Shown here in pieces: positions 3,330 to 39,202 of a stretch of 64,000 nucleotides of DNA. This DNA is from Diphasiastrum complanatum (Eukaryota; Streptophyta; Lycopodiopsida; Lycopodiales; Lycopodiaceae). The stretch spans positions 82,471,543 through 82,535,542 of the forward strand of contig CM055092.1 in assembly GCA_029204225.1 (NCBI GenBank). Direction: 5' to 3'. Position numbers and translations under genes: made by a program. The notes beneath the pieces were generated by a model. It did no database searches, was not told where the DNA came from, and worked only from the letters and a program-made list of their open reading frames with translations. Positions within the stretch are counted from its first letter, which is position 1; each line of letters begins with the position of its first letter.

Positions 3330-3750
3330 CTTCATCTAGAACCACAATAGTCAAGATAACCCGTTGGAACACATGGTTCTTGACTATTCACTGTCAGCCA
3401 TCTACAAACCAAGATGGTTGGGGAATTGCATGCTACACTTGAACAGCTCCCATCACAAGGAGGCCATGAAGATTGAATATGATGCCTTGATCACCAACCA
3501 CACATGGGAGCTAGTGGATCGACCACCTACCATGCATATCATTGGATGCAAGTGGGTGTTCAAGATCAAGTACAATCCTGATGGCTCCATCAACAAGAAC
3601 AAGGCAAGATTATGTGCTAAAGGCTTTCCACAAATATATGGCCTTGACTATGAAGAAACCTTTGCTCCTGTAGCAAAGATGGTGACAATAAGAATCATAA
3701 TCTCTCTTGCCTTATTTTTTAAGTGGAAATTGTTTCAACTTGATGTCTCC
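3330..3750 (+). pseudogene. Ty1/copia reverse transcriptase remnant, 5' part (split by copy 1)
   Basis: This frame carries the start of a copia reverse transcriptase: the W-E-L-V region, then I-G-C-K-W-V-F-K-I-K, A-R-L-C-A-K-G, D-Y-E-E-T-F-A-P-V-A-K-M and F-Q-L-D-V-S at the end. It breaks at 3750 exactly where the LTR of copy 1 starts and resumes at 9617 in the same strand. There is no upstream gag, protease or integrase, so the host element was already 5'-truncated or is too diverged to read before about 3330. The RT palm start is intact but the YVDD region is missing from the continuation. The left boundary is approximate. Confidence 0.85.
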
Positions 3751-4403
3751 TGTGAAAAATTGTCAACTAGTAGTATTTTCCTAACTTGAGATTTTGTAGG
3801 CCTATGGCCAAATAAAAGTTAGAGATAGGTTCATACATGTATGTAGAGGCCCAAAGTATGTGTACACTACTTTTGAGGTCACATTAATTAGAGGAGGTCG
3901 AGTGTGGAGCTCTTCTATTGGCTCATAATTTGGTGCATTCCTATTTGACCAAATTTCTAGGTATATGGGTGAATCCTATTGGACCCCAATTTTAGCCTAT
4001 CATAAGACAAGTGGCCAAGAGGCACTATGGCTGCTATAAATAGCCATCTCCACGAGTATGTACACATCTCATTTTCATTCTATTGAATGAATGTTATGCT
4101 CTTTGAAGATCCATCTTCTTCTCTCTCACTTTTTTGTTCATATCTTGCATTCTAGCCACTAGAATTGTGATTTCTTTGTTGCTATGGCTTCACACGTGTG
4201 AAATGCAGGTTGTAGGCTCTGAAGTACGGACAGGGACAGCAAGTTTCTGTTTGTGGAAGCTTATGATCAGATTTTGATGTTTAGTTGATGTTTAGTATGC
4301 TTAACATCACAATTTCTATCATTTTTTCAATCTAGATGTGCATAACTTCCATGGCCAAGATCTTTATGAAACTTTAGCATCTTTTGGATCTGAGTTTTTC
4401 ACA
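3751..4403 (+). repeat. 5' LTR of copia copy 1
   Basis: Length 653 bp with TG...CA ends. It contains TATAAATA at 4035-4042 and the 14-bp palindrome TTCACACGTGTGAA at 4189-4202. Like the 3' LTR it reads GGTATATGGG near 3960, where both LTRs of copy 2 read GGTAGATGGG. Confidence 0.96.
4035..4042 (+). promoter_or_regulatory. TATA box of the copia LTR promoter
   Basis: TATAAATA lies 284 bp into the LTR, in a CTATAAATAGCC context typical of plant core promoters. The same site occurs at 9243-9250, 32633-32640 and in the 3' LTR of copy 2. Transcription would start some 30 bp downstream, placing the palindromic G-box in transcribed LTR sequence. Start-site position is inferred. Confidence 0.75.
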
Positions 4404-4415
4404 TGGTATCAGAGC
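4404..4415 (+). promoter_or_regulatory. Primer binding site (initiator Met tRNA)
   Basis: TGGTATCAGAGC immediately follows the LTR terminus CA. It is the standard complement of the 3' end of plant initiator methionine tRNA used by copia elements to start minus-strand DNA synthesis. Confidence 0.95.
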
Positions 4416-5012
4416 ATTAGGCGGCCAAATGTGCAGGTTTTGCCAGATTTAGAAGAGATTTGTGGGCGAGTTTGCTTTTGTAGCATTCCAATCAAGTTTC
4501 TAGCTAAAAATCTTGTTGATTTATGTGTAGAAATTGGATCTTTGTGATCAAAACATCATTTGTATGCATTTCAATTGAAGTAGGGCGAATTCCCTCTGTA
4601 CTTATCAGAATAAGGAGACAAAAATTGTTTTGGAAAGAGGGAGATGCAAGATCCAACAAGATCCTATTAGTTTTCCATTCTAGCATATAGTTTTTTGATT
4701 CAATTTCTTGCTTCTTCATGTCAAAAACTTCAAAATTGATGTAACCCTCTGATTTTCAGTTTGCTGAATGATTCAAGAGTGTATTTCAATCTTAGGAGTG
4801 AGGGAAAAGCAAGTATATTGAGGTTTGGTCTTGGTTTGATCAAGAAATCATAAAACTAGTGGCTAAAATTAAGGAAAAAGTGAGGAAAAGAGAGAAAAAG
4901 TAAGGTTTTAGGTTCCAAATCTTTGTGATTTCTTCTTGTGTTTCATTTGTTGATTCAAGAGAGTGCTTAGTGCATTGGAACAGGTCAAAGATCAGAGATC
5001 AATCATTGCAAC
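4416..5012 (+). other. Untranslated leader of copia copy 1
   Basis: About 600 bases lie between the primer site and the polyprotein ATG, with no long in-frame coding sequence. The leader would carry packaging and dimerisation signals, but I cannot point to them. A homologous leader lies at 33014-33610, with one visible difference (TTAAGG against TTGAGG near 4872). Confidence 0.8.
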
Positions 5013-8000
5013 ATGGCTACAAATGGAGGCTACATGTTGGAAAGCAATGATAGGCTTACCTCCCTCAACTATTCTACTTGGAAAGTAAGGATGGAGTCTT
5101 TGCTTGAGATGAATGAGTTGATGGATATTGTTGTAGGTGTGGAGGAGAGACCTTTGGCACCTCAAGAACAATTGAGGTATGACAAGAGGGCAAAGAAAGC
5201 CCTTCACATGATCAAGATGAATGTGACAAATGAGCTTATCAAAGAGGTTGGTAAGTGCACATCATCTAGTGAAGCTTGGGAAGCCTTGAAGAAGGTTTAT
5301 GAATCCAAGTCTACTTCTAGAGTGTTGACTTTAAGAAGGCAAATCTTTTCTTGTATGCAAAAGAAGAGTGAGAATGGACATGCTTTTGTTTTGAGAGTTA
5401 AAGCATTGAATGATGAGTTAGCATGCATTAATGATGGCATAAATAATGAGGAGCTTGTTCAAGTGATTCTCAATGGCTTGTTGGATGATCATGCTAATCT
5501 TGTTCAAAGTTATGCTATCCAAAAATGTTTACCAAGTGTTGGAGACTTGCAAGAGGTCTTGTTGGCTGAAGAATTCAGGTTGCAAGCAAGAGTGGGAGCA
5601 TCTTCTACATCTCAAGGAGGAGAAGAGGAGGCAATGTTCTCTAAAGGCAAGTTCAAGGGCAAAGGTAAAAGCAATTGGTCTAAAGGGCAAGACCAAGGTG
5701 AGCACTCTACTTTTGGCAAAAAGAAGGATAGATCTAAGCTAAAATGTTTCTATTGTGGAGTCAAAGGGCATTTTGCTAGTGATTGTTTTAAGAAAAAGAG
5801 GGATCAAGGGGAAAAGCAAACCAATCTAACTATTGATGAGGGTGGGGATGAGCTTCTTTCAAATGATGCTTTTGTTATGTCATCTTGCTTGTTGGCTAAT
5901 CATGGAGACATTGATCCTTGGTGGATTGATAGTGGAGCCACTTCTCATATGACATATCATAAAGAGTATTTTTCATCTTTAATGGCATTTGATGGTGATA
6001 GGAAGGTAATCTATACCGCAAATGATGGTGAGTGTGCAATCAAGGGGATTGGCACAATTCCTATTTCACTTTCTACAAATAGGAATATAGAATTGAAAGA
6101 TGTTTTGCTCATTCCATCCATTACCAAGAACTTACTTAGTGTAAGCCAAATGCTTGACAAAGGATTCAAAGTTGAGTTTGATGGTGATGCTTGCTTGATC
6201 AAAAAGGGGTGTAGTATCATTGCAAAAGGGAAAAGGCAAGGGAAATTGTTCAAGCTTGATGCATGTGTTGTTGCTAACCAAGTTGGATGCATGGCAAATG
6301 AACAAATGTCAATTCAAGAGGTATGGCATAAAAGGATGGGACATCTCAACTACAAGGCCTTGGAGGTAATAGCCAAAAAGGAGGTAGTAAGGGGACTTCC
6401 CAAGTCTCTTACTTGCTTGAATCATGTTTGTGAAGAATGTGCTTTGTCTAAATCACATAGATTGCCATATACTAGATCTATATCTAGATCTAAGATGCCT
6501 TTTTCTCTCTTGCATTCGGATATTCATGGTGTTACTACAATTAGCAATGGAGGTGCTAAGATGTATGTAACTTTCATTGATGATTTTAGTAGATTTTGTT
6601 GGGTTTATCTACTAAAGAGCAAGGATGAGGTGTTTGATGTGTTTGTCAAGTTCAAAGTTGCTATTGAGACTCAATTTACAACCAAAATCAAATGCTTGAG
6701 GAGCGACAATGGTGGTGAATACATTTCTAACAAATTCAAAGCCTTTTGCGATGAGCATGGGATCAAGAGGGAGTACACATGTCCAAGAACACCACAACAA
6801 AATGGAGTGGCCGAGAGGAAGAATAGAACCTTGTGTGAGAGTGCAAAGGCAATGAGATTGAATGCTAATCTTCCTAAACCTTTTTGGAGTGATGCTTTGT
6901 TGTGTGCAAATTTCCTATGCAATAGATGGCCAAGTGTTGTATTGGAAGGAAAAACCCCTTTTGAAGCTTTGTTTGGTACGAAGCCTAATGTCAAGTTTCT
7001 AAGAACTTTTGGATGCATTTGCTACTTCAACATTACTCTTGATGATAGAACTAAGGAGGATCCATCTTCAAGAAAGGGCATTTTTGTTGGTTATAGTGAA
7101 GTAAGCAAAGCATATAGGATTTATGTTCCTTCAATCAAGAAAGTGTTCACAAGTAGGGATGTCATTTTTGATGAAAGTAACATTCCAAAAGTTGTTTCAA
7201 GTGATGATGGTGTTGTTGCAACTAATGTGCTTGATGACAATGGAGTTGATGACACATTGGATGTGGATGTTGAAGAAGCCTCTTCAAGTCAAATTCCAAG
7301 GAGAACTCCAAGGCATAAAGTGAAACCCTCAAGGCTCACTTATGATGGCAAAGGTAAGCAAGTGGTGGATGGATCCAACTATGCTTTCCTAACTTCTTTT
7401 GATGTACCTTCATGTGTAGATGAAGCAAGGCAAGAAGAGGAATGGATCCAAGCAATGGATCTTGAGTTTGAAGCACTTATGAAGAACAACACATGGAGAT
7501 TGGTGGAGCTTCCAAAGGGCAAAAGTGCAATTGGATGCAAATGGATCTTCAAGGTAAAGACAAATCAAGATGGATCTATCAACAAGTTGAAGGCAAGGTT
7601 GGTGGCTAAAGGTTATGCTCAAGAGCATGGCATTGACTATGAGGAAACCTTTGCACCCGTGGCAAAGATGGTGAGCATAAGAGTAATCATTTCCCTTGCA
7701 ACTCTTTATGGATGGGATCTTTGGCAATTAGACATTTCTAATGCTTTCTTGAATGGTGATCTTGAAGAGGAAGTCTACATGGAGCAACCCGAGAGCTATG
7801 TTTCTCATAGCAAGCCTAATCATGTGTGTTTTCTACAAAAAAGTTTGTATGGTCTTAAGCAAGCACCAAGGAGTTGGTATGCTAGGCTTAACTCTTTTCT
7901 ACTTTCTCAAAACTTCACTATGAGTGAGTATGATCATTCACTTTACTTTAGAATTAGTGCTAATGATGTTACAATCCTTCTAATTTATGTGGATGACATT

Positions 8001-8963
8001 ATTTTAAGTGGAGGGAACAAGGAAGATATAGAAGATATCAAGAAAGCACTAAAAAAGGAATTTGAAGTGCATGATCTTGGTCTTTTGAGCTATATCTTAG
8101 GAATAGAAGTAATTAGAACTTCTCAAATCACTTTTATTTCACAAGAGAAGTATGCTATTTCTATTCTCAATAGATTTCATATGGTAGATGCAAATCCTAT
8201 TGATACACCTATGGAATCACATGTAAAGCTAACTATAAGAGGTAATGAAAGATCCTTCGAGGACATTACTCTCTATAGGAAGCTAATAGGTTCTCTTATA
8301 TATCTAACCATCACAAGACCTGATTTATCTTATTGTGTTGGTAGATTAAGCCAATTCATGCAAGATCCTAGCATAGAACATTGGAAACTAGGAAAGAGGA
8401 TCTTGAGATACATCTCGGGAACAAAAGATTTTGGCATTGTTTATAGAGGCTCATCACCTAACTTATTTGGTTTTTCAGATTCAGATTTTGCAGGAGACCT
8501 TATGGATAGAAAATCCATAAATGCACATGCTATTTTCATAGGTGATGGAGCTATCTCATGGATGTCGAAGAAACAAGCAACTATATCACTTTCTTCTAGT
8601 GAGGCCGAGTACAAAGCTTTGACATCATGCACAAAGGAGATGGTGTGGATCAAGAGGATGATTATGGAGCTTCATTTGCTGGATTTTTCAGAGAGTCCAA
8701 TCATCTTTTGTGACAACCTTTCAGCCCAAAGTCTAGCAAGCAATCCGGTTTTCCATGCAAGGAGCAAACATATCGAGGTGGCTTACCATTTTGTGAGAGA
8801 ACAAGTGTTGGCAAAAGAGATCAAGCTTGAACATGTCCCATCAAAGGAATGTGTGGCTGATATCTTTACCAAAGCATTGGGAAAGGACTTATTTTTCAAG
8901 CATAGAACAAGTCTTGGTGTACTTTCTAAATCTATGCTAAAACTAGTTGAAGAGGGAGTGTGA
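5013..8963 (+). CDS. Copia Gag-Pol polyprotein, intact (copy 1)
   Basis: A single 1316-residue polyprotein. Residues 1 to about 200 are a copia-type Gag (UBN2-like). A CX2CX4HX4C zinc knuckle uses C245, C248, H253 and C258. The aspartic protease motif D-S-G-A starts at D306. Integrase has an HHCC finger starting H439 and H444, then D503, D565 and E601, with the expected 35-residue spacing between D565 and E601. Reverse transcriptase carries Y-V-D-D at 992-995. RNase H has D1156 (S-D-S-D-F-A-G-D) and E1197 (S-S-S-E-A-E-Y). Length and order fit autonomous plant copia elements. The stop codon lies in bases 3-5 of the 3' LTR. No frameshift or stop is seen, so the product is probably functional. 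Confidence 0.96.
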   Translation: MATNGGYMLESNDRLTSLNYSTWKVRMESLLEMNELMDIVVGVEERPLAPQEQLRYDKRAKKALHMIKMNVTNELIKEVGKCTSSSEAWEALKKVYESKSTSRVLTLRRQIFSCMQKKSENGHAFVLRVKALNDELACINDGINNEELVQVILNGLLDDHANLVQSYAIQKCLPSVGDLQEVLLAEEFRLQARVGASSTSQGGEEEAMFSKGKFKGKGKSNWSKGQDQGEHSTFGKKKDRSKLKCFYCGVKGHFASDCFKKKRDQGEKQTNLTIDEGGDELLSNDAFVMSSCLLANHGDIDPWWIDSGATSHMTYHKEYFSSLMAFDGDRKVIYTANDGECAIKGIGTIPISLSTNRNIELKDVLLIPSITKNLLSVSQMLDKGFKVEFDGDACLIKKGCSIIAKGKRQGKLFKLDACVVANQVGCMANEQMSIQEVWHKRMGHLNYKALEVIAKKEVVRGLPKSLTCLNHVCEECALSKSHRLPYTRSISRSKMPFSLLHSDIHGVTTISNGGAKMYVTFIDDFSRFCWVYLLKSKDEVFDVFVKFKVAIETQFTTKIKCLRSDNGGEYISNKFKAFCDEHGIKREYTCPRTPQQNGVAERKNRTLCESAKAMRLNANLPKPFWSDALLCANFLCNRWPSVVLEGKTPFEALFGTKPNVKFLRTFGCICYFNITLDDRTKEDPSSRKGIFVGYSEVSKAYRIYVPSIKKVFTSRDVIFDESNIPKVVSSDDGVVATNVLDDNGVDDTLDVDVEEASSSQIPRRTPRHKVKPSRLTYDGKGKQVVDGSNYAFLTSFDVPSCVDEARQEEEWIQAMDLEFEALMKNNTWRLVELPKGKSAIGCKWIFKVKTNQDGSINKLKARLVAKGYAQEHGIDYEETFAPVAKMVSIRVIISLATLYGWDLWQLDISNAFLNGDLEEEVYMEQPESYVSHSKPNHVCFLQKSLYGLKQAPRSWYARLNSFLLSQNFTMSEYDHSLYFRISANDVTILLIYVDDIILSGGNKEDIEDIKKALKKEFEVHDLGLLSYILGIEVIRTSQITFISQEKYAISILNRFHMVDANPIDTPMESHVKLTIRGNERSFEDITLYRKLIGSLIYLTITRPDLSYCVGRLSQFMQDPSIEHWKLGKRILRYISGTKDFGIVYRGSSPNLFGFSDSDFAGDLMDRKSINAHAIFIGDGAISWMSKKQATISLSSSEAEYKALTSCTKEMVWIKRMIMELHLLDFSESPIIFCDNLSAQSLASNPVFHARSKHIEVAYHFVREQVLAKEIKLEHVPSKECVADIFTKALGKDLFFKHRTSLGVLSKSMLKLVEEGV
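8949..8958 (+). promoter_or_regulatory. Polypurine tract of copia copy 1
   Basis: GAAGAGGGAG abuts the 3' LTR and would prime plus-strand synthesis. It is also translated as the last residues of the polyprotein. Confidence 0.9.
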
Positions 8964-9611
8964 AAAATTGTCAACTAGTAGTATTTTCCTAACTTGAGAT
9001 TTTGTAGGCCTATGGCCAAATAAAAGTTAGAGATAGGTTCATACATGTATGTAGAGGCCCAAAGTATGTGTACACTACTTTTGAGGTCACATTAATTAGA
9101 GGAGGTCGAGTGTGGAGCTCTTCTATTGGCTCATAATTTGGTGCATTCCTATTTGACCAAATTTCTAGGTATATGGGTGAATCCTATTGGACCCCAATTT
9201 TAGCCTATCATAAGACAAGTGGCCAAGAGGCACTATGGCTGCTATAAATAGCCATCTCCACGAGTATGTACACATCTCATTTTCATTCTATTGAATGAAT
9301 GTTATGCTCTTTGAAGATCCATCTTCTTCTCTCTCACTTTTTTGTTCATATCTTGCATTCTAGCCACTAGAATTGTGATTTCTTTGTTGCTATGGCTTCA
9401 CACGTGTGAAATGCAGGTTGTAGGCTCTGAAGTACGGACAGGGACAGCAAGTTTCTGTTTGTGGAAGCTTATGATCAGATTTTGATGTTTAGTTGATGTT
9501 TAGTATGCTTAACATCACAATTTCTATCATTTTTTCAATCTAGATGTGCATAACTTCCATGGCCAAGATCTTTATGAAACTTTAGCATCTTTTGGATCTG
9601 AGTTTTTCACA
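8959..9611 (+). repeat. 3' LTR of copia copy 1
   Basis: 653 bp, apparently identical to the 5' LTR, including the copy-specific T near 9168 (GGTATATGGG). It is followed by the target duplication TCTCC and then by the resumed frame of the host copia element. Confidence 0.96.
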
Positions 9612-9616
9612 TCTCC

Positions 9617-10607: not shown

Positions 10608-11045
10608 CTAGCCGAGTAGAGGAGGAATAGCTCTGGGAGCAGCAGACTGAGATACGTGTAACTTGCAAAATCTCTCCCTCATTTTCATCAGTAGCTGAAA
10701 GTCCTTGGGCATTATGGTGACTCTCTTGGAATGAATATCAAGCAAAAAAAAATCTTCAAAAAAAAGGCTCATATAGTCTTCAGCAGCTTTTTGAAGGCAC
10801 TGAAGAGCAGTGGGTGTGAATCTAACGAGCTGTCCGAGATCATTTCTATTTATGCTTCGTACGGCACGGTAGAATGGAGCTCTAGGAATTAATAGAGTAG
10901 TTGATCTCTGATACTTACGTATTTCAGAGAGCCACCTACTACGGTTGTGCATTCTAGGTCTAACTTGAGGTGTAATGGCAACCACAGGAGCTGAGGATGA
11001 GCTAGCAGAGAAGAAATCCCTCCTTGTCTGCTTTCTCCTATCCAT
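10608..11045 (-). CDS. Divergent histone H3-like protein with CenH3-like features
   Basis: A 145-codon intronless frame. Residues 38 to about 126 match a histone H3 fold: E-I-R-K-Y-Q-R-S-T-T-L-L-I (alphaN), A-P-F-Y-R-A-V (alpha1), A-L-Q-C-L-Q-K-A-A-E-D-Y (alpha2), then H-S-K-R-V-T-I-M-P-K-D-F-Q-L. H105 and D115 keep the spacing of H3 His113/Asp123, which form the H3-H3 interface. Loop 1 (about 66-74) is one residue longer than canonical H3, and A-A-E-D and K-D-F are CenH3-like. The tail has only a trace of the canonical start (R-K-Q-T-R-R). The 19 residues after the fold are not H3-like. It is transcribed divergently from ORF1 of segment A and shares its upstream motif. Alternatives: a CenH3 retrocopy, or a host gene captured by an element. 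Whether it is expressed is unknown. Confidence 0.8.
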   Translation of the reverse strand: MDRRKQTRRDFFSASSSSAPVVAITPQVRPRMHNRSRWLSEIRKYQRSTTLLIPRAPFYRAVRSINRNDLGQLVRFTPTALQCLQKAAEDYMSLFFEDFFLLDIHSKRVTIMPKDFQLLMKMRERFCKLHVSQSAAPRAIPPLLG

Positions 11046-11889
11046 GGAAGTGTACTAGGGGATATTGCACTTGTGCATGACGAATAGGATGAGCAGGGAA
11101 GGATTATGAAGCCCTCGTAGAGGACCAATATGTACGGGAAGAATGTACGGTATATCGGACCTGTGCGAGCCGAATATCACAGAGATCGATCAACATAGAA
11201 GAGAGGCACACAAGTCGGATATGAGGCGACACGTAGGAAGAAATATCGGACCTGTGCGCATGGAAGGCAGTAGACAGAATATCGCTTGTGAAGGAGACGC
11301 ACAAGTGCGATATGCAGAGCGAAAAAAAAAGTGAAAAAAATTCATCGAAGTTTGTGATTTTATATCGCGATTCACACGTGCAAAAGAACGTCATGTCGCA
11401 CGTGTGGAATTTGTATGGCCAAATGTGAGAGTGACATGTGTTAGGTTGTCATTTTACACGTGTGGATATGTACGGGCAAATGCGAGAGTGACACGTGTTG
11501 TCGAATTGACGAATGAACATGAGGCATGTGTACTGGTGTCATTTCACACATGTCCAGGTGTCACCTCACACGTGCCAGTGCCTGCAATCCAATCGAAAGT
11601 AAACACGTGTCCATTGACCATTGACCAAATGTGTGAAAATTCAGTATAAAAGGCACGAAACCCAATTAATTTTTTACTTTTTTCTTTCTCAAAATTCACG
11701 GCATATTGCTCTTGTGCGCGCGCATTGTTGTCCATTTTTTGCAACGATACCTACTTGCGCTGCAACAATACCTACTTGCGATATTCAGTAGCTACCTGCC
11801 ATATATATCCCTCTTGTGGGTGATCTTTAGAGTTAGTTTTGTTTTGTTTGATCTCCCTCACGCACAAGTGCGATATCTACGTTAGTTCC
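11046..11889. promoter_or_regulatory. Divergent promoter region with repeated 16-bp motif
   Basis: This spacer separates the minus-strand histone-like ATG (11045) from the plus-strand ORF1 ATG (11890). A TATAAAA box faces the histone gene (minus, 11358-11364) and TATAAAAGG faces ORF1 (11645-11653). The motif ATATCGCACTTGTGCG or close variants occurs in both orientations at 11062-11077, 11152-11167, 11243-11258, 11298-11313, 11703-11718 and 11861-11876, with a partial copy at 11279-11290. The last copy on each side sits 16 and 13 bases before the respective ATG. CACGTGTG-type boxes cluster at 11370-11580. The roles are inferred. Confidence 0.65.
11401..11510 (+). repeat. 58-bp imperfect tandem repeat in the divergent promoter
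   Basis: CGTGTGGAATTTGTATGGCC at 11401 recurs as CGTGTGGATATGTACGGGC at 11459, followed in both by AAATG(T/C)GAGAGTGACA(T/C)GTGTT. Two units of 58 bp, each with a CACGTG-type core. Confidence 0.75.
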
Positions 11890-13382
11890 ATGGCCTCTTC
11901 CTCAGGATCTACACGAGATTCAGGGTTGAGTTCATTTTTTACTGAATTTGGGATTATTGAAAATCTAGACTACTTCCATAGCTTATCCAGGCCATATTTA
12001 CATGTTTTCAAGACTGCACAACCAAATTCTAAAGTATTTTATGAACATTATGTTAGATTCAGGGATATACTCAGTACACATGTTATCTCCATAAGTTCAC
12101 TCCAGTACATGCATTATACTGATCTTGTTCATTTCTTTCCAGCTTTCAGACATAGACTAGATAGAATGTTCACCAAATTGTTTGATCTTTTCAAAAGCAG
12201 TTCAATGTGTCCTTATTGCAACAAGAAATGTCGATTGGTTTAATATCATAGTGGTTTCGTACTTTTCCTATTAGTTCAGATCCCAGATGATGAGGAAATT
12301 TCTGTTGCTGACCCTCCTATGGCATCATCCTCTGTTCAGTCAGCTATTAAGGATATCAGTCACTTCCTTATCGACACCCCTGATAAGGAAAGTGACTTTA
12401 TTGATGTAAACATTGATTTGCTCCATTCTTTTATTGGCCAAAATCCATCTGTTGATGAATAGATCCCAGCTGATTTATGTAGATTTATTGACTATCGTGA
12501 AGATGACGTTCTATGTTTATTATCCGGCACAATTTATAAATTCTCCGACTTTGTAGATTTTGAAACAGATGACCTTGATGTTGGAATTGATTTTGATGAT
12601 GAGGAGGGACTTATGACCGGTGAAGAATGCCCGACTAAGACTTTATCCAATATTGCTGAGGATGGGCGAGGCAGACCATCCGATGAAGAATTCACAGCAT
12701 TTAAATCCCAGATGGGCTTCCCTTGTCCATCATTAATGCATTTCACTAATGATTCCACTTCAGGAAGTGGTCATTATATTGATCATCCTGATCTGGTTGC
12801 TGATGATGATGAAGAATGTGTAAGTGTTTAAACTTCATTGCATTAGAATGTTTTTAGCCACTGAATGTATTTTTGCTAACATATTTCTTACTGCAGGATG
12901 CTCTCATAATTGATGATTTTGCTGCGAGACGAGGTGGTTTCAGACAACATGCATCCTCGTTCCAGAGGGATAGTGGACTTGGCCACTATCTTAGGCATTT
13001 TCTGAAGAATGAGATCTGTATTGCTCATTCCAAGTTGAACCCAGTTGGGGAGAGTCTTATAATGGCAGTTAAAGCTTTATCATTTTATCTAGGAGGACGT
13101 AAATTTGTTAAGACAAATAAGATCATTTTTGTCAAAAGATCTTATGTTTTGAACATTCTAGATTTAACTGATGGGAATGTTCCTTTAAGGAGCTCTCATT
13201 ATTCATTGTATTCCACTTATGTTGAACTTAGTGGAAATAAGGATAATGCACTGACACACAAGCTGATGATGAATAGTGGACACTTTTTATTTTGTTATAA
13301 TACAATCAATACATTTACATTGAGTATTTCTTCTCTCTTGTTCAATGAATTTGCAAGAAATTCTGAACATATCATGATTTGA
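11890..13382 (+). pseudogene. ORF1 of segment A, unknown protein, two exons, with stops
   Basis: Exon 1 starts M-A-S-S-S-G-S and is open to TAA at 12241; homology to segment B then continues in frame, with another TAG near 12460. The best splice is a 77-bp GT-AG intron (12820-12896) with GTAAGT donor, CTAAC branch-like site and CTGCAG acceptor, joining E-E-C to D-A-L-I-I-D-D-F in phase. A possible zinc motif C-P-Y-C-N-K-K-C lies near the end of the first open part; acidic stretches follow. The C-terminal exon is the best conserved part between copies. I recognise no family. Stops and an indel near 13250 show decay. The function may be accessory to transposition, by position only. Confidence 0.6.
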
Positions 13383-13737
13383 TGACAATGATGATCTTCT
13401 ACTTAGCAATCATCTAATTTTCTCTTCCTGTATGAACTTGCATGCTTTTCTAAACTTGTTGTATTGTGTGGACTTTGTTATATGTCGAATCTAAACTATG
13501 TGGTAGAACCATTGAAACAATTGACAAATGTAGTTTTGTTTTTCTTTGGTTTTTCCATGTTGTGTATTTTGATGAAATGCTGCTCGTGCTTGCCAATGTG
13601 ACTTCTCCATCCCTTGTGATGACCATACACTCAATCTTCCATATGTATTTGCAAAAAATGATGTATGATCTCTTAGTATGTGCTGCATATGTCAAAATCA
13701 TAATGTTAGTCTTATGTTTGGATCTAAATATATATGA

Positions 13738-14833
13738 AAATTTGAAAGCATTTTGAAAATTTTATACGAACCATGTAATGAGTGATGTGATCCTCTCCCC
13801 ATGCTTTTGATATTGCATTAACAAACTCGACACAAGTCCTTTGGATAGCTTTCTTATCAATATCAGAGTATTTTCCTTTTCTTAAAATAGCAATCATACT
13901 ATCAAGCTTTTTCCATACATCAACTTTTAGTACTTTGGTTTTGCCGTCTTTCTCGCAGTCCTGAATGGCAGCAATAATATCTGTCCAGACTGAGTGTTGA
14001 ATATTAGAAGCCTTACCAGTATGATTTGATAGGAAACAACGTGCTTTTGCTCCTCCTATGCTTGGCTTAGTTGGCATGTTCCCATTCTTTCCTAAAAGCT
14101 TTTCATCTTTCTAATCGAGAGATAGCTTCATTTGCTAATGATGCTGGCTTAGTATTCCAAGCAAAAACTATATGAAGATAAATGATCTTTTCTATTAATC
14201 TAACTTCTGCACAAAGAGTGCAAACATGCACATTTTCAAGGGGATAGGTAGCACAGGCTTCCAGTTTGGATCTGCATATTCTCTAGTAATTCATGTACTC
14301 CTAGTAACATCTTTTGCCATTTTCATGCAGTACAAACAAGGGTGTTTTGATGTAGCACCGTGAGAGACATTACACATACATTTCAATGTTTTCAAATCAC
14401 CTTCTAAGTGCCATTCAACATTGAAGTCTCCAACTCTTGGAACATTGAGAAGTCCTCCATCCATATGGTCCTTGATGATCCTAGGATAAGATGTCCTTAA
14501 GAATATCCATAATAATATATCATGATCCTCCTTCAGCACCTGTCCAAAGAATTAATCAGACTTAGTTTACAATGAATTAATACTATTCAATGAATGTAAT
14601 GTAATAATGAGGCTAGTTACCTGAAACACTGCCAACCACCATATATCATTTTCTAGACTGGACACTGAATCTGAAATCTTCTTGGTCCTCTGGTTGTGAT
14701 AGAGCACCATTCATGAGAGTTATACTAACCCTCTCTAACTTAAGTACTATGATTATTTTGCCATTCACCTTTTCATAGGTTATATCACAAAATGTGACGA
14801 TGTATCTCAGTAAGTAATTTAGATCAACAAATA
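13738..14833 (-). pseudogene. ORF2 of segment A, transposase-like, 5'-truncated
   Basis: Minus-strand homologue of the larger gene at 39690-41964. The first exons are missing: homology starts abruptly at 14833. An 81-bp GT-AG intron (14540-14620) matches the one in B. Kept motifs include G-D-L-K-T-L-K-C-M-C, K-H-P-C-L-Y-C, an altered V-H-V-C-T-L region, and W-G-E-D-H-I-T-H-Y-M near the end. Relative to B an 11-residue block (D-E-S-E-I-V-K-G-Q-K-M) is deleted; it contains the acidic cluster I suspect of holding a catalytic Asp. About 54 bp near 14108 are also missing. Not functional. Confidence 0.65.
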
Positions 14834-14849
14834 TATCATTCATGAATGT

Positions 14850-15895
14850 GAAATAATAATCATTCTAGCAATATATGTAGATGATATTCTAATCACTACG
14901 AATGATGAGAGTAAGATAGAAAAAATTAAAATGGCACTTGCATTAGAATTTTCTATCAAAGATTTAGGAGAAGTATATAACTGTATAGGAATGGAAATTA
15001 AAAGAAATATAGCTGCAGGTATCACTAGACTAAGTCAGAAAAGATACATTCTGGAAATGCTAGCTAGATACGGTCTAATGGATGCAAATCCAGTTAGTAC
15101 TCCAGCTGAAAAAGGAGTAGTGCTTAGTAGTAGTATGAGTCCTATGTGTGAATCTGATCGAGAGAAAATGAGGAATGTACCTTATAGAAATTTAGTAGGA
15201 TCTTTGATTCACACAAGCATTTGCACTCGACCTGACATAGCTTACAGTGTTAGTAAAGTAGGACAATTCAATAGTAATCCAGGATGGATGCATTGGGTTG
15301 TAGCCAAGTGAATCCTTAGATACTTGAAAGGAACTATTAATCGGGAACTAACATATGTACGTGATGCAGGTGTTTTGATTGGTTTAGCTGATGCAGATTG
15401 GGGAGGCGATATTGACAGCAGAAGATCCACATCTGGTTACGCATTTATAATGTGCGAAGGAGCAATCGCCCGGGGAAGTATCAAACAGAAAAGCGTGGCA
15501 CTTTCAACATCAGAAGCAGAGTATGTGAGCCTGGCTCAAGCAGCAAAAGAAGCTCTGTGGATCAAGAATTTAATGACAGAATGGGGATTTGAAATCCCCA
15601 CAATAAGCATTCTCAATGATAATCAAGGAGCTCTATTCATGAGCAAAAATGGAGGATCTCATCATAGAGCCAAGCATATTGATCTTCAATATCATTTCAT
15701 TCGCGAAACGATTGAAGATGAGTCCAAAACTGTACACTTTTGTCCCACTAAGAAAATGACGGCTGACATATTGACTAAAGCGCTAGATCGAGAATCTCAC
15801 AATATACATTGCAAAGGACTTGGTTTGAATAATTTCAGCGAGGGAGGATTTGTTAATACAAGGACGCTGGAATATTCTCAGATTGTGAAAAAGTG
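14850..15895 (+). pseudogene. Ty1/copia RT C-terminus and RNase H remnant
   Basis: The frame opens with A-I-Y-V-D-D-I-L-I-T, continues through the RT thumb (L-G-E-V-Y-N-C-I-G-M-E-I) and P-Y-R-N-L-V-G-S-L-I, then RNase H (A-D-A-D-W-G-G-D, S-T-S-E-A-E-Y, H-H-R-A-K-H-I-D) and ends T-A-D-I-L-T-K-A-L. One in-frame TGA lies at 15309-15311, where related proteins have K-R-I-L-R-Y-L; this fits CGA to TGA at a methylated CpG. Everything before YVDD is absent. It belongs to a different copia lineage from copies 1 and 2. The left edge coincides with the truncation of segment A. Confidence 0.85.
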
Positions 15896-19239: not shown

Positions 19240-19480
19240 AAAAATACATGAAGAGCTGTGACCTATTTATAGTTGACATGCATGGGGATTGCATGGGATC
19301 ATGCACATGATCCTACTCTCTATATATTGAGATAGAGATTATCCCACCGACAACTTGGTCTAGGTTACCAGTTGAGCTCTTCTGCTCTTGCTATCACATG
19401 TCTTGGGGGCTAGATCCAGGAGGGATCTAGGTTTGGTTGGGTGGTTTGGCTCCATAGTCTCTCTTGTTGTATTTTCCTAT
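19240..19480 (+). repeat. LTR fragment, same family as 28831-29313
   Basis: About 240 bases from GAAGAGCTGTGACCTATTTA through CTATCACATGTCTTGGGGGC to TTGTATTTTCCTATGACATT match 29040-29280 at roughly 80-85% by eye. At 29.3 kb this sequence runs into a primer site, so it is the 3' part of an LTR. Here no primer site follows, so it is truncated. Confidence 0.7.
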
Positions 19481-19547
19481 GACATTGAGAAGCTGAATTC
19501 ATGTCAATCAGAACGTCATCTTACCAATATTCTCATATGGACCAGCC

Positions 19548-20190
19548 TTTCCAACTTGTGGTGGAAACAACTTTTCACAAGTTTGATGGCAGAATTACTC
19601 ATATGGATGTCTGAATATGGTTGGACAACTTTCACATTTATTTTCAGTCACATCCAAATAGAGATCATGACAAGATTCAATTTCCAAGAACATACCTTGA
19701 TGGATTTGCAAACATTTGGTGGCGATATTGGATGCAACGTGAAGAACCTCATGGTACCCCTGATAAATGGCCACCCTTTGTACAAAAGTGTATTGAAGAA
19801 TTTGAATGTACAGACGGCCAAGTATGGCATTCTACCCAATAGACGTCTTCTGTGGAGATCTATTCCAATGACTTCTGACAAATAATGGATGTATATGGTT
19901 ATATAGTGGAGGAATTTAATACAATGCACTTTATTTTAGGCTTGAAGCCTAATATAGAGCTTGTTTATCTAAAAATATATATCAGGAGACTTGGATAATG
20001 TCATTTTCTGATATAAGATCACATGCTCACACCATAGAATATGGACTAAACAAGGGTCAACGTGAAGGTGCAACAGAATACTTCACATCACTAGAGTGCA
20101 CTTTGGAGATACGCGGGATATTAAATATCAACAAAATGATAGAGCAGTTACAAAAGCTGAAGGATCAAAACAAAGCGCCTAAGGTTTAAT
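19548..20190 (+). pseudogene. Ty3/gypsy Gag-like remnant
   Basis: A frame near 19550-19840 reads like a plant retrotransposon Gag: F-D-G... W-L-D-N-F or M-D-N-F-H-I-Y-F, D-K-I-Q-F-P, L-D-G-F-A-N-I-W-W, then W-P-P-F-V-Q-K-C-I-E-E-F. A stop ends it at 19840 and more Gag-like sequence (Y-G-L-N-K-G-Q-R-E-G-A) follows at 19998-20189 in another frame. No zinc knuckle was found. Assignment rests on the W-L-...-F/ A-xx-W-W pattern of Retrotrans_gag domains. Confidence 0.55.
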
Positions 20191-31527: not shown

Positions 31528-32348
31528 AAAGTGGTATCATAGCACTGGTTTATTAAATTACTAGAGTCTAAGATTTATAATAGAATTTAATATGTTCTTA
31601 TTTATCGATTAATTTTTTACCTTTTCCATTCTCAAAATTCGTGGCATATCGCTCTTGTGCGCGCGCATTGCTGTCCGTTTGCTTGCAACGATACCTACTT
31701 GCGCACAAGTGCAATATTCGGTATCTGCCTACCGTACATATCTCTCTTGTGCACCATCTTGGTAGTTAGTTTTGTTTCAGTTCTCCCTCGCGCACAAGTG
31801 CGATATTCACGTTACTACCATGGTCTCTTCCTCAAAATCCTCACGAGATTCAGGCTTGAGTTTATTTCTTAGTGAATTTGGGATTACTGAAAAACCTAGA
31901 CTACTTTCATAGCCTATTCAGGCCATATCTACATGTTTTCAGGACTGCACAACCAAATTCTGACGTATTTTATGAACATTATGTTAGATTCAAGGATATA
32001 CTCAGTACGCATGTTATCTCCATAGGTCCACTCCAGTACATGCAGTATACTGATCTTGTTCATTTCTTCCCAACTTTCAGACGTAGACTGGATAGAATGT
32101 TCACCAAATTGTTTGATCTTTTCAAAAACAGTTCAATGTGTCCGTATTGCAACAAGAAATGTCGATTGGTTGAATATCAGAGTGGTTTCATACTTTTTCT
32201 GTTAGTTCAGATCCCAAATGATGAGGAAGTTTCTGTTGCTGACCCTCCTTTTGCATCATTCTCTGTTCTGTCAACTATTAAGGATATCAGTCACTGTTTT
32301 ATCGACACTCCTGATAAGGAAAGTGACTTTATTGATGTAAATACTGAT

Positions 32349-33001
32349 TGTGAAAAATTGTCAACTAGTAGTATTTTCCTAACTTGAGATTTTGTAGGCC
32401 TATGGCCAAATAAAAGTTAGAGATAGGTTCATACATGTATGTAGAGGCCCAAAGTATGTGTACACTACTTTTGAGGTCACATTAATTAGAGGAGGTCGAG
32501 TGTGGAGCTCTTCTATTGGCTCATAATTTGGTGCATTCCTATTTGACCAAATTTCTAGGTAGATGGGTGAATCCTATTGGACCCCAATTTTAGCCTATCA
32601 TAAGACAAGTGGCCAAGAGGCACTATGGCTGCTATAAATAGCCATCTCCACGAGTATGTACACATCTCATTTTCATTCTATTGAATGAATGTTATGCTCT
32701 TTGAAGATCCATCTTCTTCTCTCTCACTTTTTTGTTCATATCTTGCATTCTAGCCACTAGAATTGTGATTTCTTTGTTGCTATGGCTTCACACGTGTGAA
32801 ATGCAGGTTGTAGGCTCTGAAGTACGGACAGGGACAGCAAGTTTCTGTTTGTGGAAGCTTATGATCAGATTTTGATGTTTAGTTGATGTTTAGTATGCTT
32901 AACATCACAATTTCTATCATTTTTTCAATCTAGATGTGCATAACTTCCATGGCCAAGATCTTTATGAAACTTTAGCATCTTTTGGATCTGAGTTTTTCAC
33001 A
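32349..33001 (+). repeat. 5' LTR of copia copy 2
   Basis: 653 bp, TG...CA. TATA box at 32633-32640 and palindrome TTCACACGTGTGAA at 32787-32800. Confidence 0.96.
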
Positions 33002-33013
33002 TGGTATCAGAGC
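33002..33013 (+). promoter_or_regulatory. Primer binding site of copia copy 2
   Basis: TGGTATCAGAGC directly follows the LTR, as in copy 1. Confidence 0.95.
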
Positions 33014-33610
33014 ATTAGGCGGCCAAATGTGCAGGTTTTGCCAGATTTAGAAGAGATTTGTGGGCGAGTTTGCTTTTGTAGCATTCCAATCAAGTTTCTA
33101 GCTAAAAATCTTGTTGATTTATGTGTAGAAATTGGATCTTTGTGATCAAAACATCATTTGTATGCATTTCAATTGAAGTAGGGCGAATTCCCTCTGTACT
33201 TATCAGAATAAGGAGACAAAAATTGTTTTGGAAAGAGGGAGATGCAAGATCCAACAAGATCCTATTAGTTTTCCATTCTAGCATATAGTTTTTTGATTCA
33301 ATTTCTTGCTTCTTCATGTCAAAAACTTCAAAATTGATGTAACCCTCTGATTTTCAGTTTGCTGAATGATTCAAGAGTGTATTTCAATCTTAGGAGTGAG
33401 GGAAAAGCAAGTATATTGAGGTTTGGTCTTGGTTTGATCAAGAAATCATAAAACTAGTGGCTAAAATTGAGGAAAAAGTGAGGAAAAGAGAGAAAAAGTA
33501 AGGTTTTAGGTTCCAAATCTTTGTGATTTCTTCTTGTGTTTCATTTGTTGATTCAAGAGAGTGCTTAGTGCATTGGAACAGGTCAAAGATCAGAGATCAA
33601 TCATTGCAAC

Positions 33611-36600
33611 ATGGCTACAAATGGAGGCTACATGTTGGAAAGCAATGATAGGCTTACCTCCCTCAACTATTCTACTTGGAAAGTAAGGATGGAGTCTTTG
33701 CTTGAGATGAATGAGTTGATGGATATTGTTGTAGGTGTGGAGGAGAGACCTTTGGCACCTCAAGAACAATTAAGGTATGACAAGAGGGCAAAGAAAGCCC
33801 TTCACATGATCAAGATGAATGTGACAAATGAGCTTATCAAAGAGGTTGGTAAGTGCACATCATCTAGTGAAGCTTGGGAAGCCTTGAAGAAGGTTTATGA
33901 ATCCAAGTCTACTTCTAGAGTGTTGACTTTAAGAAGGCAAATCTTTTCTTGTATGCAAAAGAAGAGTGAGAGTGGACATGCTTTCGTTTTGAGAGTTAAA
34001 GCATTGAATGATGAGTTAGCATGCATTAATGATGGCATAAATAATGAGGAGCTTGTTCAAGTGATTCTCAATGGCTTGTTGGATGATCATGCTAATCTTG
34101 TTCAAAGTTATGCTATCCAAAAATGTTTACCAAGTGTTGGAGACTTGCAAGAGGTCTTGTTGGCTGAAGAATTCAGGTTGCAAGCAAGAGTGGGAGCATC
34201 TTCTACATCTCAAGGAGGAGAAGAGGAGGCAATGTTCTCTAAAGGCAAGTTCAAGGGCAAAGGTAAAAGCAATTGGTCTAAAGGGCAAGACCAAGGTGAG
34301 CACTCTACTTTTGGCAAAAAGAAGGATAGATCTAAGCTAAAATGTTTCTATTGTGGAGTCAAAGGGCATTTTGCTAGTGATTGTTTTAAGAAAAAGAGGG
34401 ATCAAGGGGAAAAGCAAACCAATCTAACTATTGATGAGGGTGGGGATGAGCTTCTTTCAAATGATGCTTTTGTTATGTCATCTTGCTTGTTGGCTAATCA
34501 TGGAGACATTGATCCTTGGTGGATTGATAGTGGAGCCACTTCTCATATGACATATCATAAAGAGTATTTTTCATCTTTAATGGCATTTGATGGTGATAGG
34601 AAGGTAATCTATACCGCAAATGATGGTGAGTGTGCAATCAAGGGGATTGGCACAATTCCTATTTCACTTTCTACAAATAGGAATATAGAATTGAAAGATG
34701 TTTTGCTCATTCCATCCATTACCAAGAACTTACTTAGTGTAAGCCAAATGCTTGACAAAGGATTCAAAGTTGAGTTTGATGGTGATGCTTGCTTGATCAA
34801 AAAGGGGTGTAGTATCATTGCAAAAGGGAAAAGGCAAGGGAAATTGTTCAAGCTTGATGCATGTGTTGTTGCTAACCAAGTTGGATGCATGGCAAATGAA
34901 CAAATGTCAATTCAAGAGGTATGGCATAAAAGGATGGGACATCTCAACTACAAGGCCTTGGAGGTAATAGCCAAAAAGGAGGTAGTAAGGGGACTTCCCA
35001 AGTCTCTTACTTGCTTGAATCATGTTTGTGAAGAATGTGCTTTGTCTAAATCACATAGATTGCCATATACTAGATCTATATCTAGATCTAAGATGCCTTT
35101 TTCTCTCTTGCATTCGGATATTCATGGTGTTACTACAATTAGCAATGGAGGTGCTAAGATGTATGTAACTTTCATTGATGATTTTAGTAGATTTTGTTGG
35201 GTTTATCTACTAAAGAGCAAGGATGAGGTGTTTGATGTGTTTGTCAAGTTCAAAGTTGCTATTGAGACTCAATTTACAACCAAAATCAAATGCTTGAGGA
35301 GCGACAATGGTGGTGAATACATTTCTAACAAATTCAAAGCCTTTTGCGATGAGCATGGGATCAAGAGGGAGTACACATGTCCAAGAACACCACAACAAAA
35401 TGGAGTGGCCGAGAGGAAGAATAGAACCTTGTGTGAGAGTGCAAAGGCAATGAGATTGAATGCTAATCTTCCTAAACCTTTTTGGAGTGATGCTTTGTTG
35501 TGTGCAAATTTCCTATGCAATAGATGGCCAAGTGTTGTATTGGAAGGAAAAACCCCTTTTGAAGCTTTGTTTGGTATAAAGCCTAATGTCAAGTTTCTAA
35601 GAACTTTTGGATGCATTTGCTACTTCAACATTACTCTTGATGATAGAACTAAGGAGGATCCATCTTCAAGAAAGGGCATTTTTGTTGGTTATAGTGAAGT
35701 AAGCAAAGCATATAGGATTTATGTTCCTTCAATCAAGAAAGTGTTCACAAGTAGGGATGTCATTTTTGATGAAAGTAACATTCCAAAAGTTGTTTCAAGT
35801 GATGATGGTGTTGTTGCAACTAATGTGCTTGATGACAATGGAGTTGATGACACATTGGATGTGGATGTTGAAGAAGCCTCTTCAAGTCAAATTCCAAGGA
35901 GAACTCCAAGGCATAAAGTGAAACCCTCAAGGCTCACTTATGATGGCAAAGGTAAGCAAGTGGTGGATGGATCCAACTATGCTTTCCTAACTTCTTTTGA
36001 TGTACCTTCATGTGTAGATGAAGCAAGGCAAAAAGAGGAATGGATCCAAGCAATGGATCTTGAGTTTGAAGCACTTATGAAGAACAACACATGGAGATTG
36101 GTGGAGCTTCCAAAGGGCAAAAGTGCAATTGGATGCAAATGGATCTTCAAGGTAAAGACAAATCAAGATGGATCTATCAACAAGTTGAAGGCAAGGTTGG
36201 TGGCTAAAGGTTATGCTCAAGAGCATGGCATTGACTATGAGGAAACCTTTGCACCCGTGGCAAAGATGGTGAGCATAAGAGTAATCATTTCCCTTGCAAC
36301 TCTTTATGGATGGGATCTTTGGCAATTAGACATTTCTAATGCTTTCTTGAATGGTGATCTTGAAGAGGAAGTCTACATGGAGCAACCCGAGAGCTATGTT
36401 TCTCATAGCAAGCCTAATCATGTGTGTTTTCTACAAAAAAGTTTGTATGGTCTTAAGCAAGCACCAAGGAGTTGGTATGCTAGGCTTAACTCTTTTCTAC
36501 TTTCTCAAAACTTCACTATGAGTGAGTATGATCATTCACTTTACTTTAGAATTAGTGCTAATGATGTTACAATCCTTCTAATTTATGTGGATGACATTAT

Positions 36601-37561
36601 TTTAAGTGGAGGGAACAAGGAAGATATAGAAGATATCAAGAAAGCACTAAAAAAGGAATTTGAAGTGCATGATCTTGGTCTTTTGAGCTATATCTTAGGA
36701 ATAGAAGTAATTAGAACTTCTCAAATCACTTTTATTTCACAAGAGAAGTATGCTATTTCTATTCTCAATAGATTTCATATGGTAGATGCAAATCCTATTG
36801 ATACACCTATGGAATCACATGTAAAGCTAACTATAAGAGGTAATGAAAGATCCTTCGAGGACATTACTCTCTATAGGAATCTAATAGGTTCTCTTATATA
36901 TCTAACCATCACAAGACCTGATTTATCTTATTGTGTTGGTAGATTAAGCCAATTCATGCAAGATCCTAGCATAGAACATTGGAAACTAGGAAAGAGGATC
37001 TTGAGATACATCTCGGGAACAAAAGATTTTGGCATTGTTTATAGAGGCTCATCACCTAACTTATTTGGTTTTTCAGATTCAGATTTTGCAGGAGACCTTA
37101 TGGATAGAAAATCCATAAATGCACATGCTATTTTCATAGGTGATGGAGCTATCTCATGGATGTCGAAGAAACAAGCAACTATATCACTTTCTTCTAGTGA
37201 GGCCGAGTACAAAGCTTTGACATCATGCACAAAGGAGATGGTGTGGATCAAGAGGATGATTATGGAGCTTCATTTGCTGGATTTTTCAGAGAGTCCAATC
37301 ATCTTTTGTGACAACCTTTCAGCCCAAAGTCTAGCAAGCAATCCGGTTTTCCATGCAAGGAGCAAACATATCGAGGTGGCTTACCATTTTGTGAGAGAAC
37401 AAGTGTTGGCAAAAGAGATCAAGCTTGAACATGTCCCATCAAAGGAATGTGTGGCTGATATCTTTACCAAAGCATTGGGAAAGGACTTATTTTTCAAGCA
37501 TAGAACAAGTCTTGGTGTACTTTCTAAATCTATGCTAAAACTAGTTGAAGAGGGAGTGTGA
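33611..37561 (+). CDS. Copia Gag-Pol polyprotein, intact (copy 2)
   Basis: 1316 residues, uninterrupted, with the same domain positions as copy 1: zinc knuckle C245-C258, protease D306, integrase D503/D565/E601, RT Y-V-D-D 992-995, RNase H D1156/E1197. By eye it differs from copy 1 only at N121S, T656I, E808K and K1090N; none falls on a catalytic residue named here. Silent changes are few. The stop again lies inside the 3' LTR. It is likely functional and belongs to the same recently active family. Confidence 0.96.
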   Translation: MATNGGYMLESNDRLTSLNYSTWKVRMESLLEMNELMDIVVGVEERPLAPQEQLRYDKRAKKALHMIKMNVTNELIKEVGKCTSSSEAWEALKKVYESKSTSRVLTLRRQIFSCMQKKSESGHAFVLRVKALNDELACINDGINNEELVQVILNGLLDDHANLVQSYAIQKCLPSVGDLQEVLLAEEFRLQARVGASSTSQGGEEEAMFSKGKFKGKGKSNWSKGQDQGEHSTFGKKKDRSKLKCFYCGVKGHFASDCFKKKRDQGEKQTNLTIDEGGDELLSNDAFVMSSCLLANHGDIDPWWIDSGATSHMTYHKEYFSSLMAFDGDRKVIYTANDGECAIKGIGTIPISLSTNRNIELKDVLLIPSITKNLLSVSQMLDKGFKVEFDGDACLIKKGCSIIAKGKRQGKLFKLDACVVANQVGCMANEQMSIQEVWHKRMGHLNYKALEVIAKKEVVRGLPKSLTCLNHVCEECALSKSHRLPYTRSISRSKMPFSLLHSDIHGVTTISNGGAKMYVTFIDDFSRFCWVYLLKSKDEVFDVFVKFKVAIETQFTTKIKCLRSDNGGEYISNKFKAFCDEHGIKREYTCPRTPQQNGVAERKNRTLCESAKAMRLNANLPKPFWSDALLCANFLCNRWPSVVLEGKTPFEALFGIKPNVKFLRTFGCICYFNITLDDRTKEDPSSRKGIFVGYSEVSKAYRIYVPSIKKVFTSRDVIFDESNIPKVVSSDDGVVATNVLDDNGVDDTLDVDVEEASSSQIPRRTPRHKVKPSRLTYDGKGKQVVDGSNYAFLTSFDVPSCVDEARQKEEWIQAMDLEFEALMKNNTWRLVELPKGKSAIGCKWIFKVKTNQDGSINKLKARLVAKGYAQEHGIDYEETFAPVAKMVSIRVIISLATLYGWDLWQLDISNAFLNGDLEEEVYMEQPESYVSHSKPNHVCFLQKSLYGLKQAPRSWYARLNSFLLSQNFTMSEYDHSLYFRISANDVTILLIYVDDIILSGGNKEDIEDIKKALKKEFEVHDLGLLSYILGIEVIRTSQITFISQEKYAISILNRFHMVDANPIDTPMESHVKLTIRGNERSFEDITLYRNLIGSLIYLTITRPDLSYCVGRLSQFMQDPSIEHWKLGKRILRYISGTKDFGIVYRGSSPNLFGFSDSDFAGDLMDRKSINAHAIFIGDGAISWMSKKQATISLSSSEAEYKALTSCTKEMVWIKRMIMELHLLDFSESPIIFCDNLSAQSLASNPVFHARSKHIEVAYHFVREQVLAKEIKLEHVPSKECVADIFTKALGKDLFFKHRTSLGVLSKSMLKLVEEGV

Positions 37562-38209
37562 AAAATTGTCAACTAGTAGTATTTTCCTAACTTGAGATTT
37601 TGTAGGCCTATGGCCAAATAAAAGTTAGAGATAGGTTCATACATGTATGTAGAGGCCCAAAGTATGTGTACACTACTTTTGAGGTCACATTAATTAGAGG
37701 AGGTCGAGTGTGGAGCTCTTCTATTGGCTCATAATTTGGTGCATTCCTATTTGACCAAATTTCTAGGTAGATGGGTGAATCCTATTGGACCCCAATTTTA
37801 GCCTATCATAAGACAAGTGGCCAAGAGGCACTATGGCTGCTATAAATAGCCATCTCCACGAGTATGTACACATCTCATTTTCATTCTATTGAATGAATGT
37901 TATGCTCTTTGAAGATCCATCTTCTTCTCTCTCACTTTTTTGTTCATATCTTGCATTCTAGCCACTAGAATTGTGATTTCTTTGTTGCTATGGCTTCACA
38001 CGTGTGAAATGCAGGTTGTAGGCTCTGAAGTACGGACAGGGACAGCAAGTTTCTGTTTGTGGAAGCTTATGATCAGATTTTGATGTTTAGTTGATGTTTA
38101 GTATGCTTAACATCACAATTTCTATCATTTTTTCAATCTAGATGTGCATAACTTCCATGGCCAAGATCTTTATGAAACTTTAGCATCTTTTGGATCTGAG
38201 TTTTTCACA
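37557..38209 (+). repeat. 3' LTR of copia copy 2
   Basis: 653 bp, apparently identical to its 5' partner. It is followed by target duplication CTGAT and resumed ORF1 sequence. Confidence 0.96.
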
Positions 38210-39202
38210 CTGATGTTCTCCGGGATTCTTTTATTGGCCAAAATACATCTGATGATGAATCCAACCCTATAGAGGAGTTAAAATGTCTTTTCAATTTGCA
38301 TGTATATTATATTAATGACGATGTATATTTTACTACTGTTGATTTATGTAAATTTTTTGACTATCTTGAAGACGAGGTTCTATGTTTATTATCCGGCACA
38401 ATTTTCGAATTCTCCGACTTTGTAGATTTTGAAACAAATGACCTGTTGCTGGTATTGATTTTGATGATGAGGAGGGACTTATGACCGGTGAAGAATGCCT
38501 GACTAAAACTTTATCAAATATAGCTGAGGATGGGCAAGGCAGACCATCCGATGAAGAATTCACGGCATTTCAATCCCAAATGGGCTTCCCTCGTCCATCA
38601 TTAATGCATTTCACTGATGATTCCACTTCAGTACGTGGTCATTATATTGATCATCCTGGTCTGGTTATTGTTGATGATGAAGAATGTGTAAGTGTTTAAA
38701 CTTCCTTGCATTAGAATGTTTTTAATCACTGAATGTGTTTTTGCTAACATATTTCCTATTGCAGGATGCTCTCATAATAGATGATTTTGCTGCGAGACAA
38801 GGTGGTTTAAGACAACACGCATTCTCGTTCCAGAGGGACATTGGACTAGGCCACTATCTTATGCATTTCCTGAATAATGAGATCTGTATTGCTCATTCCA
38901 AGCTGAGCCCAGTCGGGGAGAGTCTTATAATGGTAGTTAAAGCTTTATCATTTTACCTAGGAGGACATAAATTTGTTAAGACAAATAAGATCGTTTTTGT
39001 CAAAAGATCTTATGTTTTGAACATTTTAGGCTTTACTAATGGGAATGCTCCTTTAAGGAGCTCCCATTATTCATTGTATTCCACTTATATTGAGCTTAGT
39101 GGAAATAAGGATAATGCACATCTATTAGATGCATACGCTAGTAGAGAATTTCTTCATGACAATACTGCCATAGAATCTGACACAAGATCTCATGATGAAT
39201 AG

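Follow-up and report, generated by a model that had tools for sequence, protein, structure and literature searches.

The window analysed here, a stretch of 64,000 nucleotides from Diphasiastrum complanatum, carries an open H3-like histone frame of 145 codons at 10608–11045 on the minus strand. The frame is the N-terminal part of a longer gene (gene D) that is truncated in this copy and lacks its protease part. Pfam Histone (PF00125) matches it at E 7.6e-25 (88 bits against a cut-off of 26.4), and a PDB search returned 176 distinct sequences at E ≤0.001, with histone H3 on top at 2.4e-20. These values exclude chance for the H3 fold, which the initial annotation had read from the minus-strand translation alone while proposing a profile search. 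Two of its finer observations hold as well. The His and Asp of the H3–H3 interface (H113 and D123 in H3 numbering) are both present in the window frame; among 24 distinct copies of the element family to which it belongs (family 1), all retain the His and 22 the Asp. Loop 1 is indeed one residue longer than in canonical H3 and in host H3, a trait confined to family 1 in the 20-row tree alignment; in the rows of families 2, 3, 4, 5 and 5b the loop is no longer than in canonical H3.

Comparison with other copies by blastn and tblastn places the frame in a family-1 element copy that is cut at both ends (10622–14855, minus strand) and includes the histone part of gene D, genes C and B, and part of A. 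Gene C, on the plus strand, comprises a first exon region broken by a stop (11839–12279) and a later exon region (12873–13382). The transposase exons lie on the minus strand: B3 with the motif SSQGMEKSHWQ (13539–13640), a stop-broken exon B with GDLKTL and CLYC (14078–14539), and a remnant of exon A (14694–14855) from which the stretch bearing the KLDES Asp motif, with the first Asp, is deleted. The transposase of this copy is dead, and the picture of an open histone frame among broken element genes is accurate. A second family-1 copy (31604–42490, minus strand) contains genes C, B and A, with exons B3 (39456–39557), B (39830–40507) and A (40535–41467, KLDESEI motif kept) and a single 35-base terminal inverted repeat with 1 mismatch (42456–42490), all on the minus strand. 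No histone–protease gene was found in this second copy, and the blastn and tblastn comparisons of the 64-kb window recovered neither gene E nor the protease exons of D in either copy.

Gene C of the second copy contains a Copia-type LTR retrotransposon on the plus strand (32346–38209), one of two in the window, the other lying at about 3750–9612 (left edge approximate). Each has an open frame of 1316 codons; the two are 99.83% identical over 5811 bases. The LTRs of the first show no difference across the 604 bases compared, and those of the second are 99.85% identical over 656. Such near-identical copies and LTRs indicate that these insertions are recent.

Relative to the family majority, the window histone has accumulated 17 non-synonymous and 25 synonymous changes. 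It is a decayed, truncated copy of a transposon-carried gene and, being open but without the protease part, is probably not a working gene. A second copy of the window histone was found on a 53-kb contig (G000:C2210:25958-26392) with 99.7% identity over the surrounding 2934 bases, and represents either the other haplotype or an assembly duplicate.

A search of the genome (1.74 Gb, 5176 contigs) with the window H3 frame yielded 6,926 first-look candidates, of which 150 were scored and all 150 proved to be matches (77–100% identity), giving a lower bound of at least 150 copies. The only rows at 100% identity were the window itself and one other short contig, and the 150 listed copies are spread over each of C1 to C24 as well as small contigs. 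Ten 20-kb stretches around long stop-free H3 frames, a choice that favours complete copies, were compared with one another and define an element of about 9.4 kb. Left ends could be mapped in five of these stretches and right ends in five, and they share a 35-bp inverted repeat starting with CATTAG. Genome-wide, this repeat occurs 2,378 times at ≤3 mismatches (1154 + 1224), with 0 occurrences of the reversed control, and facing pairs about 8.1, 9.4, 9.5 and 11.8 kb apart were seen among 100 listed places.

With the histone gene on the plus strand, the gene order is A(+), B(+), C(−), D(+), E(−), D being the histone gene. Gene D and the first protease exon were present in all ten stretches, B or B3 in nine, and A (once inverted), C and E in eight each. 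The suggestion that the H3-type gene belongs to, and moves with, a mobile element is supported, with matches at 150 of 150 scored places and transposase-like exons near the H3 frame in 9/10 stretches selected for long frames. The proposed genome search found these further element-linked copies rather than a single unlinked one. A relative of gene E at 34–37% identity lies near a family-1 copy in the stretch designated c22 (L023 and L024 joined; 19440–19882), and may hint at yet another family.

Genes A and B appear to be exons of a single transposase, judging from their motifs, which by inspection run in the order KLDES, GDLKTL, CLYC, HVCTLH and GMEKSHW in family 1. Together with the termini CA..TG (CATTAG...CTAATG), these motifs, as read by eye, fit the pattern outlined in PMC12730594 for the CMCT clade (EnSpm/CACTA, Mirage, Chapaev, Transib, Plavaka, ESTA, Lanisha), namely D..D..C(2)C..H(3-4)H..E with the C/H motifs between the second D and E, and CA..TG ends. 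The family-1 element differs from that clade in having no Pfam family at cut-off, no clear target-site duplication, and a histone–protease gene. A Pfam scan of A, B, C and E gave nothing at cut-off (listed matches E ≥0.03), a PDB search with transposase exon A gave no match, and a PHROGs search gave weak matches at most (best E 0.02). The flanks of six plausible end pairs matched over 3 bp in one pair, over 2 bp in one and not at all in four, and hence displayed no clear duplication in the 2–5 bp range of the CMCT clade; two more pairs, with ends 32 and 105 kb apart, were left out of this count. The ends 32 kb apart (L050 and L051, G000:C1:21359392-21359491 and 21391536-21391635) have 25-base flanks that are exact reverse complements of each other, perhaps reflecting a large inverted duplication.

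The histone frame is only the beginning of gene D. In longer copies it extends by about 200 more codons, to about 340 codons, through a basic, proline-rich linker behind the histone fold, and is followed by further exons; the window copy is cut directly behind the histone part. The description of the gene as intronless therefore stands for the window fragment and fails for the full gene. A GT donor ends the long frame in all six copies examined, and an exon start reading DHWSL was found by exact pattern in four of the six, preceded by AG in three of those four; in copy c22 and in a copy of subfamily 5b, DHWSL lacks an AG acceptor in front of it. Downstream exons carry, in order, MNS, SPQQNDSFSCGWYTLYNAKLFFEWF and YRFRQEIIL, and their decay varies between copies. 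To model splicing, the exons of one copy with GT/AG at its exon boundaries were joined by eye at these sites, with X placed at one stop. The joined C-terminal half matches Peptidase_C48 (PF02902) at E 6.5e-10 (39.6 bits against a cut-off of 20.7), exons 2–4 alone match at E 6e-8, and the top PDB match is yeast Ulp1 (E 0.0012). Neither exon 1 by itself nor exons 1 and 2 together match this family in Pfam, so the match needs exons 3 and 4. By this splice model, gene D would fuse an H3-like histone to an Ulp1-like (C48, SUMO protease) domain, a predicted combination that would point to control of chromatin and SUMO rather than to centromere identity. Proteases of the C48 family use His, Asp, Gln and Cys as catalytic residues. 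Motifs HW, PQQN and SCG are found in several copies and altered in others, and we are unsure of the catalytic activity of the predicted protease since the place of the usual Asp reads MNS, apparently Asn.

Gene D might also serve packaging or maturation, with the histone as the coat of an extrachromosomal intermediate and a maturation protease in the C48 domain. The comparison for such a role is with virus-like elements such as Polintons, and the C48-like protease and the presence of the unassigned genes C and E would suit it. We nevertheless consider it very unlikely: no polymerase, integrase or capsid family appeared at the Pfam cut-off among the element frames scanned, and three queries of IMG/VR for relatives gave 11, 54 and 1 candidate stretches with 0 confirmed. 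Polinton/Maverick elements are marked by a protein-primed polymerase and a retroviral-type integrase; neither marker family was among the Pfam matches of the element frames scanned, and membership in that group is not supported.

Further families carry H3-like sequences. Family 2, a diverged relative recovered around one family-1 element stretch, keeps the gene order, with most pieces at 40–77% identity to family 1 and the coiled-coil region and gene C pieces at 27–32%. The one family-2 copy read is broken, with a change of frame between the histone tail and the fold, and it reads GMKKSQW in place of GMEKSHW. Family 5 and its subfamily 5b account for at least 150 listed matches (63–100% identity), and a family-5 copy matches Pfam Histone at 88.8 bits. 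In both, the histone is followed by the linker and then by a protease-like region whose interruption, before HHWSL or DHWSL, falls where it does in family 1; at this site one copy (L076) has GT and AG, and another (L078) has GT without AG. The protease-like exons read in families 5 and 5b have no Pfam match. Families 3 (L056, L059–L067) and 4 (L069, L071) have an H3-like fold directly behind which the frame ends in most pieces read, and may be something else; several of them have a polyproline N-terminal stretch.

Sequence variation among copies bears on whether the gene has been of use. The family-1 histone set comprised 24 distinct copies from 31 rows, after removal of six duplicates or near-duplicates and one out-of-register row. 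Variants found in ≥3 copies amount to 38 non-synonymous, 68 synonymous and 2 stop changes, an omega-like ratio of 0.23 at an expected N/S of 2.47, and single-copy variants to 89, 28 and 6, a ratio of 1.29 (variants in exactly two copies omitted). For the first protease exon, 10 copies were available (31 sources scanned, 11 with the pattern, 1 duplicate dropped), with 4 non-synonymous and 11 synonymous shared variants (0.16) and 26 non-synonymous, 14 synonymous and 1 stop single-copy variants (0.82). These ratios use a rough transition/transversion weighting, count shared variants without a tree, and draw on copies taken from the best matches. The shared variants in both domains show that purifying selection acted on gene D during the active period of the family; the single-copy variants appear close to neutral. 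In family 3 (10 copies, shared meaning ≥2) there are few changes, with 3 non-synonymous and 4 synonymous shared variants and 15, 12 and 1 stop in single copies at an expected ratio of 2.48, so that even the single-copy variants fall under neutral. Captured pieces of host genes in plant transposons mostly decay, as noted in PMC13317346, and a histone-part stop in 10/24 family-1 copies would agree with a mere passenger, a captured piece of a host H3 gene that is useless to the element. Purifying selection on the shared variants of both domains, together with the persistence of the gene at the same position in the diverged family 2, argues against this already disfavoured account, to which we give hardly any credence.

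The initial annotation called the gene CenH3-like, and in terms of descent this is not supported. We built a tree of 20 rows, six of them entered by hand; of its five CENH3/CENP-A rows four were entered in this way and the fifth is a 30-residue part. Histones of families 1, 2 and 5 split from all H3, CENH3 and family 3/4 rows at 97/94. The tree leaves 7 of 17 inner branches open and supports the arrangement among H3 and CENH3 rows weakly, and the CENH3 rows do not form one group. The element histones may all share a single origin, a grouping with a support of 54/82 that appears in 53% of bootstrap trees. Element histones also lack a 10-residue segment present in host H3 and in the exon of a host CENH3 candidate. 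This candidate (L079, G000:C3:74791520-74791800), a partial sequence with a 35-residue exon reading followed by a GT donor, is likely a host CENH3 exon to judge from its reading; it scored 47 bits, and among the 150 listed matches 14 H3 rows reach ≥60 and the rest ≤39. Host H3 (L072, L073) and the candidate have the histone fold in common with the element histone, which also shows a KRVTIMPKD segment and the interface His and Asp as in H3. It departs from both in helix N, with a W and a two-residue deletion for PGTVA, and likewise in the LIP motif, tail residue 9 and a long C-terminal extension. Descent from a captured host CenH3 is not supported, given helix N and the 97/94 split from CENH3.

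An H3-type fold with some CENH3-like residues could instead serve targeting, the histone part bringing the transposition machinery to particular chromatin, for example centromeric, and thereby directing new copies to safe sites. An Arabidopsis study cited in PMC13317346 reportedly describes retrotransposon integration through CENH3 chromatin and would be a precedent. This explanation is unlikely in our estimation, because histones from families 1, 2 and 5 are separate from CENH3, the listed copies are distributed over every one of C1 to C24 and small contigs, and the fusion partner of the histone is a protease-like region rather than the transposase.

The tail offers a further clue. Lysine 4, by the host H3 count, is kept in 24/24 family-1 copies; position 9 holds Asp in 22 copies, Tyr in one and Asn in one, and the lysine-9 context is lost. 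The tail of the family-2 copy reads MARTKSIARA, with A at the residue-9 place; two family-5 copies read MARTKQIARPKS and MARTKQTTRPKS, with an inserted P there that may just shift the lysine; and one family-5b copy reads MVQTKQTARGHS, with G.

Plants silence transposons with lysine-9 methylation. Our preferred reading, which has about an even chance of being right, is that gene D encodes a transposon-borne histone–deSUMOylase that opposes silencing. The histone–protease protein would enter nucleosomes on or near the element, where its tail would accept lysine-4 methylation but not lysine-9 methylation and so escape the silencing mark. The attached protease would remove SUMO from silencing proteins at the element, and chromatin would stay open enough for expression of the transposase and for movement, an anti-silencing activity exerted from inside the nucleosome. 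PMC8131101 reports that, in yeast, plants and animals alike, SUMO favours the silent state of chromatin. A broader proposition, that the whole transposon lineage supplies its own H3 variant (lysine 4 yes, lysine 9 no) and a SUMO protease and thereby rewrites element chromatin from within, which would make a transposon-encoded histone an anti-silencing weapon, is one we advance tentatively and regard as rather doubtful. The same tail, with lysine 4 kept and lysine 9 replaced, and the diverged helix N could also belong to a decoy that competes for H3 chaperones or silencing methyltransferases and does not enter nucleosomes. We see only a small chance of this, as the H3–H3 interface residues are kept, suggesting tetramer formation, and a decoy leaves the protease unexplained.

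The anti-silencing reading has partial counterparts in known systems. Among Vandal elements, also plant DNA transposons, those whose VANC genes have an Ulp1 domain (KIU/KAONASHI) escape silencing and cause hypomethylation of their kin, and the function of that domain is called unknown in PMC13317346; there the domain sits in non-TIR MULEs, whereas the Ulp1-like domain of the family-1 element is, by our splice model, fused to an H3-like histone between inverted ends. Ginger1 DNA transposons likewise encode an Ulp1 protease domain, fused in their case to a Gypsy-integrase-like transposase, and the main text of PMC2836005 makes no mention of a histone. Fungal DNA transposons with TET/JBP genes carry an enzyme able to act on silencing marks, which modifies DNA bases and not chromatin proteins (PMC12730594). 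Enzymes directed at silencing marks are a known cargo of transposons. We found no description of a transposon-borne core histone in the open literature; an earlier one, for instance in subscription papers, Repbase reports or preprints, is possible.

If the protein enters chromatin, it would offer a natural and testable example of a parasite that alters the nucleosome as such, its H3 variant uncoupling lysine-4 from lysine-9 signalling and adding the removal of SUMO. For genome annotation there is a practical consequence, in that H3 and CENH3 searches of such genomes can be swamped: one H3 query gave 6,060 first-look candidates, and the H3-like frames of families 3 and 4 make up most of the diverged rows listed for it.
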